Source: Candidatus Manganitrophus noduliformans
GTDB taxonomy: Bacteria > Nitrospirota > Nitrospiria > SBBL01 > Manganitrophaceae
Direction: 5' to 3'
NCBI RefSeq assembly: GCF_012184425.1
Contig: NZ_VTOW01000005.1
Span: forward strand, 248,001-312,000
DNA: 64,000 nucleotides
This document shows positions 41,374 through 48,889 of this stretch, piece by piece. The stretch's first letter is position 1; every line of letters starts with the position of its first letter. The notes beneath the pieces are model-generated. The model was not told the DNA's origin, searched no databases, and saw nothing but the letters and a program-made list of their open reading frames with translations. Both the position numbers and the translations under genes were made by a program.

Positions 41374-41455
41374 TCGAGTTTCATGAACGTTGCCCATTCA
41401 CAGCGTATTTTAAGCGGTAATCACTAAACACAAGACGCCCTGATTCTCCGCCCTC

Positions 41456-41493
41456 GATCCTGGCCGGCATTCGGAAGAATGCCGGCCAGGATC
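41456..41493. repeat. Strong hairpin, 17-bp perfect arms
   Basis: GATCCTGGCCGGCATTC (41456-41472) and its exact complement (41477-41493) enclose a GGAA loop. It lies 9 bp after the stop of the copZ-like gene at the end of the copper operon. No T-run follows on either strand, so it is not a standard intrinsic terminator. It could protect the 3' end of the mRNA or be a small inverted-repeat element. Confidence 0.8.
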
Positions 41494-41502
41494 CGTGCGC
41501 TG

Positions 41503-41778
41503 TTATGCGCCGCAGCAGGATCGACCGGCAACCCGGCTGCTTAAAGAATTCTCTCGGGGTCCTGGCTGTACCGATATGGCAGGATAATCCGCCCCGGTGA
41601 GGACCTCCTTCATACGCTCAACCGTAATGCGTGTATCGTCGTAGTCGACCTCTGCCTGCTTCGACGGAATATCGACGGTGACCTTTCGCACTCCGTCCAG
41701 CGGTTGGAGCGCTTTGATGATCGTCTGCTCGCAATGTCCGCAGGAGATATCTGGAATATTGAAGGTTACTTTCGCCAT
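41503..41778 (-). CDS. CopZ-like heavy-metal-associated protein with Cys tail
   Basis: 91 residues from ATG 41778 (AAAGGAG 8 bases upstream; a longer start at 41808 has no such site). It is a ferredoxin-like HMA domain with metal ligands Cys13 and Cys16 (DISCGHCEQTI). About 20 extra residues follow and end in SCCGA, which could form a second thiol site. It probably shuttles Cu(I) to the CopA ATPase in the cytoplasm. Third gene of the copB-copA-copZ unit, 59 bp after copA. Confidence 0.86.
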   Translation of the reverse strand: MAKVTFNIPDISCGHCEQTIIKALQPLDGVRKVTVDIPSKQAEVDYDDTRITVERMKEVLTGADYPAISVQPGPRENSLSSRVAGRSCCGA

Positions 41779-41837
41779 GTTGTTTCTCCTTTCGTTTTTA
41801 ATCGACACGGGCCCATTGCCCGACGTCTGTCTCTTTT

Positions 41838-44279
41838 TCAGAGGCCTGGGTGAATCGTGTGATCTGCCGGGGCGAAATAGAAGGCCGCCGCGCCGATCAG
41901 CAGGGCCGCCAGGATGAGGCCCGCAAGAAAGGCATATTCACCGAGCGAATCCCTAAGAGAGGGATGAAGAATCTCCTCTGCGGTTTGAGGCGGCCGGAAA
42001 CGGCGCAGCCTCAAAGCATTGGCGACCACGCTCACGCTGCTCATTGCCATTGCCGCCGCGGCCAATACCGGATTGAGCAAGACACCCAAGAGAGGATAGA
42101 TCGCCCCCATGGCGACCGGGATGAGCGCGATGTTGTACGCGAATGCCCAGAAAAGCCCCTGTTTGATCTTGCCGACCGTTTTTCGGGAGAGCGCGATTGC
42201 CGTTACGATATTTCTCAGATCTCCCCCTATCAGCGTAATGTCCGAGGCCGCCATCGCCACGTCGGTGCCGGTGCCGACTGCGATGCCAAGATCGGCCTGG
42301 GCCAGCGCCGGCGCGTCGTTGATGCCGTCCCCCACCATCGCAACGATTTTTCCCTGAGCCTGAAGGGCTTTCACTTTCGCTGCTTTCTCTTCCGGCCGAA
42401 CCTCTGCAAGGACATGCTCGATTCCGACCTGTCGTGCGATAGCCCCCGCGGTCGCCCGGTGATCACCGGTCAGCATCCAGACATTCAGACCCAGCGCCTT
42501 GAGCTGAGCAACGGCCTCCTGAGATTCGGGTTTCAAGGTATCGGCTACAGCTAACAGACCCGCCGCCTCACCGTCGACCGCAACATAGACCGGTGTGGCT
42601 CCTCTTCCAGCAAGCTCTTCGGCCTTTAGGTCGAGGTCCTCTGTGAATATGGTCCGTTCTCTCATCCATGCACGGTTTCCGAGAAGAATCTGTCGTCCTT
42701 GCACTTCCGCCCGGATTCCTTTGCCTGGAGCGGCTTCAAACGCATCGACTGAAGGAAGGTTGAGTCCTTCTTCCTCGGCTTTGTTGACAACGGCCTCTCC
42801 GAGCGGGTGTTCCGAGCCGACCTCTGCGGCCGCTGCGAGGCGGAGCAGCGCTTCCTTCGTCATCCCATTTCGGACCACGATCTCGGTCACCGTCGGTCTT
42901 CCGTGGGTGAGCGTACCGGTCTTATCGAGCACAAGTGTATCGATCCTCCGCGCCTGTTCTAAAGCCTCACCCCCTTTCACCAGAATGCCGTGTTCCGCCG
43001 CCTTTCCGATGCCGACCATCATGGCCGTCGGAGTTGCCAGTCCGAGCGCGCAGGGGCAGGCGATAATTAAGACTGCAATTGCAGCTGTCAGCGCAAAGAT
43101 CAATGATGGCCCAAAAGCGAGCCAGATGACGAACGTCAGCGCCGCCAGAACGAGAACGATTGGAACAAAGTATCCGGAAATCGTATCAGCGAGTCGCTGG
43201 ATCGGTGCCTTGGAGCCCTGCGCTTCCTCCACGAGTCGGATGATGTGAGCCAGCGCCGTCTCCTGGCCAACCTGCGTTGCCTTAAAGAGAAAACTTCCCG
43301 TCTTATTCAGCGTGGCCCCGATCACAGGGTCCTTCGGCCCTTTCTCCACCGGCAGGCTCTCGCCAGTCAGCATGCTTTCATCTAACGTGGAGCGGCCTTC
43401 GATGATGACTCCATCAACTGGAACTTTCTCACCGGGGCGGACCCGAATGAGATCTCCGACCTGAACCTGCTCGATTGGAACATCCTGTTCTATTCCGTCC
43501 CGAAGGCGTCTGGCCGTTTTCGCCCGGAGTCCCATTAACGCCTGGATTGCGGCCCCTGTTCGACTTTTTGCCCTTGCCTCCAGCCAACGCCCTAACAAGA
43601 TCAAGGCAACAATGAGAACAGCCGTCTCGTAATAGAGATGAAAGGGGAGCCCCCAACGCGCGGCAAGGTCTGGCCAAAGGGTGACGAAGGCGCTGTAGCC
43701 GTAGGCGGCGCTGGTGCCGACTGCTACTAACGTATTCATGTTGGTGGTGCCATGTTTGGCCGCGGCCCAAGCAGCCCGATAGAAATCTCCCCCCGCCCAA
43801 AACTGGACGACTGAGGCTGCGATTAGAAACAGCGGGGCCAAGAGGCGAATATCGAGTAGCAGAGGAAGATACATCAACGCCATCATCAGAATACCGATCG
43901 GAAGACTGATCTGCCACTTCCGCCGCAGATCGTCTATTTGCTGCTGACGCTCCCGGTCCTGGGACCTGCCTCTCTCATGATCCAAGTCCGTAGGATTGAT
44001 CGCGGGAGTCTGTTTAGAGGGTGCATCCGGCCCGTCCCGAACTTCGTAGCCCGCTTTCTCCACCGCCGCGCGAAGTTGATCCGTTTCGGCTTCGGTGGCG
44101 TCATAAAAGACGTGCGCCTTTTCGGTCACCAGGTTCACAGTGGCCTCTTTTACTCCGGGGACCTTCATGAGTGCCTTTTCAATCCGCCGAACGCAGCTCG
44201 CACAGGTCATGCCGCTGATACGGAGCGTCTGTTCTTGGCGGTTCGGTTCAGTCGTTGTTGCCAGGTTCGATTTTTCCAT
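41838..44279 (-). CDS. copA: Cu(I)-exporting P1B-type ATPase CopA
   Basis: 813 residues from ATG 44279, which has GGGAGA just upstream; an earlier in-frame start would overlap copB and lacks family sequence. One N-terminal HMA domain has Cys26 and Cys29 (GMTCASC). The transport motif is C408-P-C410 ([12 protein letters not shown]). The phosphorylation loop is DKTGTLTHG and the hinge [10 protein letters not shown]. Helix 8 carries [15 protein letters not shown], the Cu(I) signature of CopA (P1B-1). After it a further hydrophobic segment and a short His-containing tail ([14 protein letters not shown]) extend beyond the normal C-terminus. It exports Cu(I) from the cytoplasm. Confidence 0.95.
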
Positions 44280-44337
44280 TTGTCGAGTCTCCCTGATCCT
44301 TTGCGATGAGATTGTTCTGTCGTTTATCGTTGCTAAT

Positions 44338-46497
44338 TCATGCAGCCTTGGTATGGTGATGGGCATGATGTCCTGCAGCACCGGGTTGTTTCTGAGCAGC
44401 CGCAAGGATTCTTCCCTTCTCCGCTTCATTTTGATCCGAGGAGATCTTGGCTCGTCGCAACAGTTGAGCGTTCATCGCCACCACGATCGTGCTCAACGAC
44501 ATCAGGAGGGCGCCGACCGCCGGCGAGAGGACGATGCCGTAGGGTGCCAAGATCCCCGCCGCCAGCGGCAGGGCAACAATGTTGTAACCGGCCGCCCACC
44601 AGAGGTTTTGATACATTTTGCGGTAGCTCGCCCGGCTGAGCCGGATGATCTTCACGATATCGAGCGGGTTGCTCCTCACCAAAATGATCCCAGCCGATTC
44701 AATCGCCACATCGGTGCCGCTTCCGATCGCGATCCCGACCTCCGCTCGGGTCAGCGCCGGCGCATCGTTCACTCCATCGCCGACCATCGCGACCCTCTTC
44801 CCCTGGCGCTGTAGCTCGGCGATCTTCTGATCTTTGTGCTCGGGGAGTACCTCCGCAAAATAGCGGTCGATCTTGAGTTCCTCGGCCACTGTTCTGGCCA
44901 CCGCATTGCTGTCGCCGGTGAGCATCGCGACCTCCACTCCCATTGCATGGAGTTCCTCGACGGCGCGTTTACTCTCCGGTCGGATGACATCCGCCAGAGA
45001 CACTCCGCCGATGACCTGCTTGTTTTCGATGACGTAGACCGCTGTCTCTCCTTTTTGGTTTGCCTCCCGCTGAAAGGTCATCAACTCCTCCGGGAGATCA
45101 AGCCGGATCATCTCCAACAATCGGGGCCCCCCCAGGAAGATCGCTTTGCCGTCATGATTCGCCCTCACACCCCGCCCCTTGATCGCCTCAAAATCAACGA
45201 CCTCTGGTACGATAAGGTTTCGATTCTCAGCGGCCTTCCGAATCCCTTGGGCGATGGGGTGCTCTGAATCTCTTTCCAATGCCGCAGCAAGGGTGAGGAT
45301 TTCCGCGTCACTCCTTCCGGCAACAGCGGCGATCGTTACGACGCCGAAGGCTCCTTCGGTGAGGGTTCCCGTTTTATCAAACACCACCATGTTTATTTCG
45401 CGGGCTTTCTCCAACGCCATCCGATCCCGCACGAGAATGCCGTTTCGAGCGCCCATCGCTGTGGTGATCGCCACCACCAATGGAACAGCCAGGCCTAACG
45501 CGTGGGGGCAGGCGATGACTAAAACCGTGGCGACCCGAGCGATGACGTCCACATTGAGCCCCACCGCAATCGTCCAAAGGAGGGCGGTCAATGCCGCAAC
45601 ACCAAGCGCTACATAGAAAAGAAGATTCGCCGCTTTATCAGCGAGAACCTGGCTCTTTGACTTGCTCTCCTGGGCCTGCTTTACCAGCCGCATAATCCCC
45701 GCAAGCGCCGTCTCTTGCCCGGTGGCGGTGACCCGAATACGAAGGCTGCCGTCGGCATTGATTGTGCCTGCGATGACGCGATCTCCAGGACGCTTGAAGA
45801 CCGGCTTTGACTCTCCGGTGATCATCGATTCATTGACTTCCGATTCTCCCTGTTCCACCTCGCCGTCGGCGGGAATGCCGGTTCCGGGGCGAATCAGGAG
45901 GCGATCCCCGCCCCGCAGATCAGTCGCCGGGATCTGAGCGATACTTCCGTCTTCCTCGATCCGCTCTGCCGTATCGGGCAATAGCCGGGCGAGTTCATCC
46001 AGAGCGCCGGATGCCTGACGGACACTTCTCATTTCGATCCAATGGCCCAGCAGCATCATGTCAATTAAAGTAACCAGTTCCCAGAAGAAGCCCATCTGCC
46101 CCGGCATGAACAACGCTGCCACGCTGTAGCCGAAAGCGACCGTGATGGCGAGCGAGATGAGCATCATCATCCCAGGCCGACGCCGGCGCCATTCGGGAAT
46201 CGCCATCCTGAGAAATGGAAGACCGCCATAGAAGAAGATGAAGACGGCCAAAAGGGGAGTCATCCATCGGCTTCCAGGAAAATAAGGCATTGTAAATCCG
46301 AGCCACTCTTGGATCATCGGATCGTACAGAACGGTTGGGATAGAGAGAAGCAATGAAATCCAGAACCGTTTTCTGAAAGTCTCCTCGTGACCGGTGTGAT
46401 CGATGTGAGTTGCGTGGTTCTCCTCCGTTTTTCCATGGGACATATTCATATCGCTTCCGTGTTGATGAGATTCATGATGGTGTGCGTGCTCTTTCAT
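44338..46497 (-). CDS. copB: CopB-type P1B ATPase with His-rich ends
   Basis: 719 residues. The N-terminus is His/Met-rich ([20 protein letters not shown]) and the C-terminus ends in [11 protein letters not shown]; there is no HMA Cys domain. The transport motif is C330-P-H332 ([12 protein letters not shown]), the P1B-3/CopB class usually linked to copper or silver, with DKTGTLTEG and [16 protein letters not shown]. First gene of the copper unit. Two ECF-type promoters lie directly upstream (46547-46631), and the CorE-like sigma gene is next. It ends 58 bp before copA. Confidence 0.93.
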
Positions 46498-46546
46498 CGC
46501 CTTCTCCTTTGTGGATAAAATGTACTGATTTGTTCCCGCCGTCTCT

Positions 46547-46575
46547 ATAGACGTGCAACTGATATTTCGGTTACA
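46547..46575 (-). promoter_or_regulatory. ECF sigma promoter in front of copB, proximal
   Basis: Read on the minus strand: TGTAACC (46575-46569), a 15-bp spacer, then CGTCTAT (46553-46547). TGTAACC and CGTC are the classic -35 and -10 elements recognised by ECF sigma factors. The site ends about 50 bp before the copB start. The same two elements with the same spacing recur 56 bp upstream. Confidence 0.72.
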
Positions 46576-46602
46576 TCATTTTGATCAAGTCCTGTTGTCT
46601 CC

Positions 46603-46631
46603 ATAGACGGAAGAGGTGCCTCGCGGTTACA
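46603..46631 (-). promoter_or_regulatory. ECF sigma promoter in front of copB, distal
   Basis: Read on the minus strand: TGTAACC (46631-46625), a 15-bp spacer, then CGTCTAT (46609-46603). Both elements match the proximal copy exactly, while the spacer sequence differs, which is what shared selection on promoter elements predicts. The 46632-46804 stretch further upstream holds no convincing gene. Confidence 0.72.
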
Positions 46632-46804
46632 CCTTGGGAGGCTGTATTGTAAGTTTCTGAGATTAAAAGGAAATCAGCAAGGCGCTCAAAGTGCTTACGA
46701 CAAAAGGATAGTAATAAGGGGCATCCGGAATCAAAAAATGGAAGGCGAGAAAAATTATCCTCAGCGGCAAATCTGCTGAATTTGGTAGGAAGTTGGACGA
46801 CCTC

Positions 46805-47338
46805 TTAATTGTGCTTGCAGGTGCAGTCGAGGCAGCCGTGCTTCGCACACGAGCGGCAGGTCTCCTCCAAGCGTTCGCGTAACGCTTGGCGGGCCCGGTG
46901 TCGGCGAACCTTCAGATTATTGAGGGTGATTCCGAGCCCTTCGGCTACTTTCTTTGGATCCCGCTCGTTCAGATCGAGTGCTTCAATCAGTTCGCCATAT
47001 TCTGGCTTCAATGTAGGGATGAGCTCTCGAAAACAGTTACAGAGGTTCTCCTCATCCTCAGGGGTAATGGCAAGATCCTTCTCTTCAGAATAGGGCTCAA
47101 GATGTTCTGTTTCAATGTGTTTCCGTCGGTAAACGTCGATGATTGCATTGTTCAGGATTCGGTAAAACCATGGAAGGAGCTTCTCCTCATCTCGTAAATC
47201 TGGCGCTGCTCGGAGCGCCTTGATTAGGCTCTCCTGGAGCACATCTTCCGCTAACTCGGGGCTTGAGAGTCGCTTCCTTACGTAGCCGAGCAGCTTTTCC
47301 CGATGGTTAAGCAGTTTAGAAACGACTTCGTCGTTCAT
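46805..47338 (-). CDS. CorE-like copper-responsive ECF sigma factor
   Basis: 177 residues. Region sigma-2 (ELAEDVLQESLIKALRAAPDL, LPWFYRILNNAIIDVYRR) and sigma-4 (EALDLNERDPKKVAEGLGITLNNLKVRRHRARQALRERL) are complete. The last 19 residues form a Cys-rich tail with Cys161, 164, 169, 172 and 174 (CRSCAKHGCLDCTC). This tail is the hallmark of the CorE/ECF44 group, whose members sense copper directly and need no anti-sigma factor. None is present here. The gene lies upstream of copB-copA-copZ on the same strand, so these are its likely targets through the two ECF promoters. Confidence 0.9.
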   Translation of the reverse strand: MNDEVVSKLLNHREKLLGYVRKRLSSPELAEDVLQESLIKALRAAPDLRDEEKLLPWFYRILNNAIIDVYRRKHIETEHLEPYSEEKDLAITPEDEENLCNCFRELIPTLKPEYGELIEALDLNERDPKKVAEGLGITLNNLKVRRHRARQALRERLEETCRSCAKHGCLDCTCKHN

Positions 47339-47423
47339 CCGAAAATCCTACAGGTTCCGCTTACTGCTATATAACACTGGCATTGAGACAGAGAGCGAGG
47401 TGATCTTAACATATGACTATGTT

Positions 47424-47450
47424 TTAGATCTATTAGATCTGTTAGATCTG
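47424..47450. repeat. Triple 9-bp tandem repeat upstream of the sigma gene
   Basis: Three adjacent units TTAGATCTA, TTAGATCTG, TTAGATCTG, each containing the palindrome AGATCT. They lie 86-112 bp upstream of the corE-like start codon. Position suggests operator sites for an unknown regulator, or slippage-generated repeats. No TGTAACC-type promoter is seen before the sigma gene. Confidence 0.7.
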
Positions 47451-47469
47451 TCGGGAGCAAGCTTAAAGA

Positions 47470-47580
47470 TCAGTCACAACATAATTTTTCTTCTTTCAAA
47501 GCCTCGTATCCCTCTTTAGCGGCAAAAAAGACGATGATCAAACCATCCACCGGGTCCGCCCACCTTTTTCGGGGAAAGGT
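47470..47580 (-). pseudogene. C-terminal remnant of a cation diffusion facilitator-type transporter
   Basis: On the minus strand a frame ending in TGA at 47470 encodes RWADPVDGLIIVFFAAKEG followed by YEALKEEKLCCD. This matches the end of small CDF-type cation transporters (WWADPxxAxxxVxFxxKEGxEA...CCD). No membrane-spanning sequence of such a transporter lies upstream. The frame continues to about 47690 without likeness, and the HlyD gene of the exporter operon follows. It is probably what is left after a deletion; it may not be expressed. Confidence 0.45.
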
Positions 47581-47695
47581 CAAGGTGTAGCCGCGGTTGC
47601 CTTTGACATCGCTTGAAAGTTCAAGTTCTGTTTTCAATGGCAAATTGAATCTCCCATTCGTCGCAAAGTGAAGGGCTGCTGCCCATTCCTGCTTA

Positions 47696-48889
47696 TTAAC
47701 CCGGTTTCACCTTCACCCCCTCCTTCACCGCATCACTCGGATAGACAATCACCTGTTCTCCAACTGAAAGCCCCCCCTCGATCATCGCCTCGGCCCCGCT
47801 TCGCCGTTCCACTTCGACCGTCCGTTTCCGCGCCCGTCCATCCGAGAGGGTAAAGGCGGCCCAGCGATCTCCTTCCCTGAAGAGCGCGCCGGAAGGAACC
47901 TTTAGAGCGTCCTCTTTGGTAAAGACGAAAATCTGCGCCTCCACCCGGTATCCGTCTCCCAACGTCTCCCATCGCTCCCGGGGGGAGGTCAGGTCGATCA
48001 CCACGTTGACCCGTTGCTCTTCCACACCGAGGGCCGAGATCTTCGTGAAGGCGGAGGGCTCCACCCGGCGGACGCGCCCTTCCAGCGGGGCTTCCCCGCC
48101 GTACCGGACGATCCGCGCCGGCATTCCGGGCCGGATGTCGACGGCATCGGTCGTGAGAACATCGACGACGACTTCCAGATCGGACGGATCGGCGATTTCC
48201 AGCAACGGGGTTCCGAGGGGGACGACCCGCTCGCTTTCTTGCAGAATGCGCAGCACCTTTCCATTCACCGGCGAACGAATTTCCAAGCGCTCCCCCGCGC
48301 CGGCCCCTTGTTTGGCGCGGATCAGCGCCGCGCGCGCCAGGTCGACCTGATGCTCGGCGACTTGAGATTCGAATTGCGCCGCCTCCAACTCCCGCGTCCG
48401 GAGGGTGACCGTCAGCTCTCTCTGCTCTCGTTCGGCGGCCGAAACCAGTCCTTCCTCCGCCAACTGGCGGGCCCGTTCAAGATCGCTTTGCGCTTGCGCG
48501 AGGGCCGCTTTCGCCCGCTCGACGGAGGCGCGCGCCCGCATCCGCTCCGCCTCCGCCGCGCCGAGCCGCTCCTGCAGTTCCCGTTCCGTCCGGACATCGA
48601 GCAGGGGAGGGGCCGCCGGAATCATCGCCGCCAGGACATCGCCTCGTTTCACCGAATCGCCCGCTTCAAGTTGAATCCGCAGGAGCTGTCCCGCCAGCGG
48701 TGCGGAGATCAGATAGCGCTCCCGGACGCGTGTCATTCCCTCCTCTTCCACCGACTGCGCAAAGGGGCCTTGAGCCACCGGGGCGGTCTCCACCTCCACC
48801 GGCTTCGGCAAGAAGGCGACGATCAGGAGAGCAAGGAGGCCGAAGAAGATCGCCGCCGAGATTCCTCTTTTGATCCATCTTCGCATCAT
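47696..48889 (-). CDS. HlyD-family membrane fusion protein of an ABC exporter
   Basis: 397 residues. One N-terminal membrane helix (GISAAIFFGLLALLIVAFLP, residues about 9-28) is followed by a split biotinyl-lipoyl domain (SAPLAGQLLRIQLEAGDSVKRGD and RSPVNGKVLRI). Between them is a long coiled-coil hairpin (about 90-190). Beta-barrel and membrane-proximal domains follow, ending in SVGEQVIVYPSDAVKEGVKV. It is periplasmic and bridges the inner-membrane transporter to an outer channel. The start overlaps the permease stop by 4 bp. No outer-membrane TolC gene is in the window. Confidence 0.9.
   Translation of the reverse strand: MMRRWIKRGISAAIFFGLLALLIVAFLPKPVEVETAPVAQGPFAQSVEEEGMTRVRERYLISAPLAGQLLRIQLEAGDSVKRGDVLAAMIPAAPPLLDVRTERELQERLGAAEAERMRARASVERAKAALAQAQSDLERARQLAEEGLVSAAEREQRELTVTLRTRELEAAQFESQVAEHQVDLARAALIRAKQGAGAGERLEIRSPVNGKVLRILQESERVVPLGTPLLEIADPSDLEVVVDVLTTDAVDIRPGMPARIVRYGGEAPLEGRVRRVEPSAFTKISALGVEEQRVNVVIDLTSPRERWETLGDGYRVEAQIFVFTKEDALKVPSGALFREGDRWAAFTLSDGRARKRTVEVERRSGAEAMIEGGLSVGEQVIVYPSDAVKEGVKVKPG

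Follow-up and report, generated by a model that had tools for sequence, protein, structure and literature searches.

The founding member of the sigma factors with a C-terminal cysteine-rich domain (CRD) is CorE of Myxococcus xanthus (MXAN_3426), which joins the sigma2 and sigma4 regions of an ECF factor to a CRD of the form CX2CX4CX2CXC (PMC3107203). Cys189 is the main activating cysteine of CorE, several members that bear it sit amid copper genes, mutating the sixth cysteine has little effect, copB is a demonstrated target, and the published promoter motif rests on four promoters (PMC3107203). A second family member, CorE2, responds to Cd and Zn (PMC8999054), and these two M. xanthus proteins are the only ones that have been studied (PMC8103513). 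The other mark of what was formerly the ECF44 group is a CxC between sigma2 and sigma4 (PMC8999054). CorE itself is weakly induced by Cd and by Zn. ECF44 now lies within ECF238, and includes CorE2 as well as plasmid-borne Roseovarius, Phenylobacterium and Roseobacter members.

Candidatus Manganitrophus (Nitrospirota) is a manganese-oxidising bacterium. We analyzed a 64,000-nucleotide stretch of the Candidatus Manganitrophus noduliformans genome (hereafter the window), for which an initial annotation had proposed a CorE-type copper sigma factor with two matched promoters in front of copB-copA-copZ. The results indicate that a CorE-type sigma factor very probably runs a self-contained copper-resistance module via these twin promoters. 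Systems of this kind are known; the present analysis contributes a firmer promoter assignment, describes the twin arrangement and derives a promoter rule for the family as a whole.

The Sigma Factor Carries the CorE Cysteine Pattern and a Linker CxC

Pfam searches of the sigma gene (Table 1) gave Sigma70_r2 (PF04542, 3e-14) and Sigma70_r4_2 (PF08281, 3e-7), both above cut-off, and the protein has sigma2 and sigma4 only, as in the ECF type. Its tail reads CRSCAKHGCLDCTC, with cysteines at 161, 164, 169, 172 and 174, all five as initially annotated. Their spacing equals that of C181/C184/C189/C192/C194 in CorE, the latter taken from the published description (PMC3107203), and C169 is the counterpart of the key Cys189, while the sixth cysteine of CorE (C206) is missing. 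In addition, the follow-up found a feature absent from the initial annotation, a CxC formed by C100 and C102 in the linker. Among 47 aligned family members, C100, C102, C161 and C164 are invariant (47/47), and C172 and C174 are retained by ≥90%. C169 is kept in the window's lineage, in Nitrospira and in Verrucomicrobia; in most alphaproteobacterial plasmid members its counterpart is replaced by F, R or W. An AlphaFold model of the sigma factor has a mean pLDDT of 74, with values below 50 in the CRD tail (162-177).

Using tblastn with the window's sigma factor, we found those of a P. zucineum HLK1 plasmid (44% identity), Roseovarius AK1035 (TM1035; 43%) and Roseobacter litoralis (40%); these are members named in the CRD family list or plasmid copies of such members (PMC3107203). 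ECF44 members are homologous to the window's sigma factor over 92-99% of the length, at 34-47% identity, and share the linker CxC, the CRD and a TGTAA-N17-CGTC promoter core. The proposed CorE/ECF44 assignment is thus borne out by the CRD spacing, the linker CxC and the homology to published members. The alphaproteobacterial ECF44 members differ in mostly lacking a C169 counterpart and in using TGTAAYG, whereas the window has C169 and TGTAACC, and many ECF44 members, unlike this one, sit with non-copper genes. The best NCBIfam match was SigZ (TIGR02959); at 110.9 bits it lies far below the curated cut-off of 168.65, and a SigZ identity was rejected. By inspection, neither the interval between the sigma gene and copB nor the stretch immediately upstream of the sigma gene contains an anti-sigma-like ORF. 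None is seen near CorE either, and by analogy with the family the window's sigma factor presumably works without an anti-sigma factor.

Two Exact Predicted Promoter Sites Precede copB-copA-copZ

On the minus strand, the sigma gene is followed, after a gap of 307 bp, by copB, copA and copZ. HMM searches confirmed these three neighbors, which had already been recognized as such, and the genes directly behind the twin promoters are all of copper type. The CPH transmembrane motif of CopB and the CPC motif of CopA were identified by direct reading. Since the copA ORF overlaps copB by 92 bp, translation of copA probably begins at an internal ATG near 44279; the same probably holds for copZ, with an internal ATG near 41778. 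No Rfam match was found at the locus, and scans for sigma-70 promoters and terminators around it stayed at chance level.

Table 1. Features of the copper locus in the window
Feature	Positions	Strand	Evidence
Module of ~6.1 kb (cation-efflux gene end, sigma, twin promoters, copB, copA, copZ)	41443..47565	-	Sequence comparison
CorE-type (ECF44) sigma factor, 177 aa, sigma2 + sigma4 + CRD	46805..47338	-	Pfam, alignment
Codons of linker CxC (C100-N-C102), between sigma2 and sigma4	47033..47041	-	Alignment; PMC8999054
Codons of CRD C161-X2-C164-X4-C169-X2-C172-X-C174	46817..46858	-	CorE-like spacing; alignment
Distal ECF promoter TGTAACC-N15-CGTCTAT	46603..46631	-	Sequence match + family footprint
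Proximal ECF promoter TGTAACC-N15-CGTCTAT	46547..46575	-	Sequence match + family footprint
AAAGGAG, likely copB ribosome-binding site	46504..46510	-	Sequence read directly
copB, copper P1B-ATPase, CPH motif + His-rich ends	44338..46497	-	TIGR01511 604 bits
copA, Cu P1B-1 ATPase, HMA domain + CPC	41838..44429	-	TIGR01511 655 bits, PF00403
copZ-like HMA copper chaperone	41503..41808	-	PF00403 2e-15, CopZ models

Upstream of copB, the initial annotation had described two sites with the same TGTAACC and CGTCTAT elements and differing 15-bp spacers; both sites are exact, and their spacers are unrelated. They are offset by 56 bp from start to start, with predicted transcription starts at about 46595-46597 for the distal promoter and 46539-46541 for the proximal one, ~99 and ~43 nt 5′ of the copB ATG, respectively. 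The distance from the AAC of the -35 to the G of the -10 is 17 nt, compared with 16-18 nt for CorE (PMC3107203). In 100 dinucleotide shuffles of the window, the motif gave 0 matches. The elements had been reported missing in front of the sigma gene, and indeed none was found there even at 3 mismatches, whereas corE is partly autoregulated. We also weighed the inverted GTCT-N3/4-AGAC present at each -10 as a possible operator; other genera do not keep it, and the idea was abandoned.

The region upstream of the sigma gene (47480-47700, minus strand) holds the degenerate end of a cation-efflux (CDF-like) gene, where the plasmid of GAC4, another Manganitrophus, still has a 95-aa “cation transporter” annotated (PF01545). 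A CueR-like dyad picked up by regex at ~47561-47579 lies near this remnant rather than in the copB leader, and was set aside.

The Promoter Motif Follows the Sigma Family Across Phyla

We assembled 91 homologues with CxC and CRD from many phyla, and scored TGTAA with a downstream CGTC at every spacing from 10 to 20, on the sigma strand, from ~300 bp upstream to 350 bp downstream of each gene. The arrangement of the window, a 7-mer and a 15-bp spacer (TGTAA-N17-CGTC), accounts for 57 sites in 50 of the 91 genes and the 14-bp spacer for 5 sites, while every other spacing gave 0-1 site and two control patterns 0-3 sites. TGTAANN-N14/15-CGTC thereby adjoins the sigma gene 62 times, in a set whose rows are related and include some near copies, so that the counts are not independent. 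Footprint-positive rows nevertheless span many phyla as well as several deep tree branches. In comparison, 8 ECF genes that fall outside the family and lack the cysteine features gave 0 sites. By a strict same-strand rule, 36 of 90 family-tree rows have no site, including one of the window's own clade (L008), and this, together with the variation of metal specificity in the family (CorE2, Cd/Zn; PMC8999054), counts against the preferred reading.

Within the window's clade, TGTAACC with CGTCT, mostly CGTCTAT, is found again downstream of the sigma gene in genomes of Calditrichaceae, Caldilineaceae, KSB1, Zixibacteria and Manganitrophus, and the spacers and intergenic lengths differ. The next gene is copB, copA, copZ or one for a DUF4396 membrane protein, except on one KSB1 contig. 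Because the motif accompanies this family of sigma genes from phylum to phylum in otherwise differing sequence, the comparison supports reading the twin sites as promoters matched to the adjacent sigma factor. The footprint yields a rule, TGTAANN-N15-CGTC beside the gene, by which targets can be proposed for the CRD sigma factors of uncultured phyla.

Some of these loci merit separate mention. In KSB1 (L004:1124-2848), a convergent ORF for an FtsX-like permease overlaps the TGTAACC promoter with its 3′ end, and no target is evident behind the promoter. DUF4396 genes adjoin or follow CorE-type sigma genes at four loci (L005:3261-3806, L011:3746-4264, L012:5205-5798 and L016:4297-4884), and at two of these a TGTAACC promoter immediately precedes the DUF4396 gene; as a lead, the footprint suggests that DUF4396 proteins likely belong to metal regulons and have a role related to metals. 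A Caldilineaceae genome has a second perfect TGTAACC-N15-CGTCTAT (L009:12234-12262) ~5.5 kb from the first, and the start of the ORF behind it (118 aa available, no Pfam match) resembles an ECF sigma factor by eye, a possible sigma cascade.

The Twin Arrangement Is Confined to Manganitrophus Within the Family

Two tandem promoters set the locus apart from CorE. Among the family genes, two same-strand sites within 150 bp occur only in Manganitrophus, in 3/3 loci, at offsets of 56 bp in the window, 56 bp in GAC4 and 62 bp in the species G004. The GAC4 sigma factor is 92% identical to the window's. Judging from usual footprints, a polymerase bound at the distal start would extend to roughly the near edge of the proximal -35; at an offset of 56 bp, two polymerases may therefore compete or stack.

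It is conceivable, though we would not favor it, that a single site is active and the other a decaying or redundant duplicate, which would be compatible with the main explanation. The 20 nt from each -10 onward are 80% alike at the 56-bp offset, a pattern as after tandem duplication, and the distal site of G004 reads TGTAATT; yet both -35/-10 pairs are letter-perfect in the window and in GAC4 although the spacers have diverged, and the pair itself is kept at all three Manganitrophus loci.

A Model for Copper-Dependent Activation

With the sigma factor acting on its twin promoters, we propose the following sequence of events. Expression of the sigma factor would be driven by the motif-free region upstream of its gene, and copper would bind the cysteine cluster of the CRD, probably together with the linker CxC. 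The copper-bound form could then become competent for promoter DNA with RNA polymerase, recognize both tandem TGTAACC-N15-CGTCTAT promoters directly and start transcription there, with predicted leaders of ~43 and ~99 nt. Co-transcription of copB-copA-copZ would in turn provide copper export and chaperoning. The first of these genes, copB, is a CorE target in M. xanthus and the predicted target here.

The copper responsiveness of the window's sigma factor is deduced from its family, in which CorE2 is a Cd and Zn responder and the same two metals weakly induce CorE. The same sigma/promoter pair might hence respond mainly to another thiophilic metal (Cd, Zn, Ag) or to oxidation of the cysteine cluster, with copper as a secondary signal, but this is unlikely given that the counterpart of C189, a residue associated with copper-gene synteny (PMC3107203), is kept as C169 and that each of the three targets is a copper-type gene.

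The Predicted Regulon Is Limited to One Promoter Region

Across the genome (5.17 Mb), TGTAACC-N13-18-CGTCT has two matches, both of them the copB-leader sites, and the looser TGTAA-N17-CGTCTA again returned only these two. The sole matches thus precede a copper gene, copB, and the motif does not recur at random genome-wide, in keeping with the initial annotation. No one-mismatch match exists in the genome. Allowing up to 3 mismatches gave 455 matches, below the 1230 of a reversed-pattern control, and a wider regulon at this stringency was rejected; the best 28 mismatch loci hold no CopA, CopB, CopZ or MacA homologue and no relative of the sigma factor. Eight P1B ATPase matches in the genome exceed the model cut-off; two are the copA and copB of the module. 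None of the remaining six genes has the motif nearby, which points to a predicted regulon private to this locus, and the motif was not found at the genome's other MerR loci. A “complete regulon” had been predicted initially; the promoters before copB stand, and the scope shrinks to this one promoter region, whereas the CorE regulon consists of several scattered genes. In viral contigs, searching for the exact motif turned up 63 lone matches but no pair, which serves as background only.

That the twin sites serve a different ECF sigma factor or another copper regulator (CueR/CopR), with the adjacent sigma factor a bystander, is highly improbable: a CueR-like MerR gene (below the CueR cut-off) does exist on contig 7, but it adjoins two other ATPase genes, both without the motif, a simple regex found no CueR-type dyad in the copB leader, and the motif tracks this sigma family across phyla amid differing sequence.

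The ~6.1 kb module matches three Manganitrophus plasmids at ~94%, whereas its flanks have no match there, and the sigma gene occurs in 3/6 Manganitrophus genomes, suggesting an exchangeable module. Small, mobile, single-locus putative copper sensors of this kind offer test cases for metal sensing by a sigma factor without an anti-sigma factor. In the assembly of the GAC4 plasmid (L128, CP114563.1), fragmentation affects the copB, pcoB-like and multicopper oxidase genes, probably an effect of long-read indels rather than a mark of true pseudogenes.

The -35 Element and the Recognition Helix Vary by Lineage

Bases 6-7 of the -35 differ between lineages: CC goes with the helix NNLKVRRHRAR (the window's clade), TA or GA with NNLTVRLHRAR (Nitrospira), and CG or TG with NALGVRLHRAR (Alphaproteobacteria). 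At residues 143/146, K/R accompanies CC, T/L mostly TA, GA or TT (Nitrospira, Verrucomicrobia), and G/L CG or TG. Residues 143 and 146 might thus read the -35 element directly, a lead that is only suggestive because the CC type is nearly one clade; the distal site of G004 has TT at these bases despite its KR helix. More speculatively, and with considerable reserve, CRD sigma factors may form matched sigma/promoter pairs with a constant TGTAA-N17-CGTC core in which -35 bases 6-7 follow residues 143/146, and the 56-bp Manganitrophus twin may be a functional unit that shapes the copper response through two polymerases that touch or exclude one another.

Other lineages place the site differently. 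At four Verrucomicrobia-type loci it is found 42-55 bp upstream of the sigma gene, a position suggestive of autoregulation. A second type of Nitrospira CRD sigma factor, with the helix ENAAVRVHRAR (L025, L028, L031, L041, L168, L170, L171, L175 and L177), has TGTAAGG-N15-CGTCAGC 61 bp upstream of the sigma gene and in the opposite orientation, probably serving a divergent target gene. On alphaproteobacterial plasmids (L131, L132, L134, L136, L137, L144 and L145), several TGTAAYG-N15-CGTC sites per 10 kb lie near CRD sigma genes, with petA, DMT transporters, DUF3141 and others around them, perhaps reflecting a wider plasmid-borne regulon.
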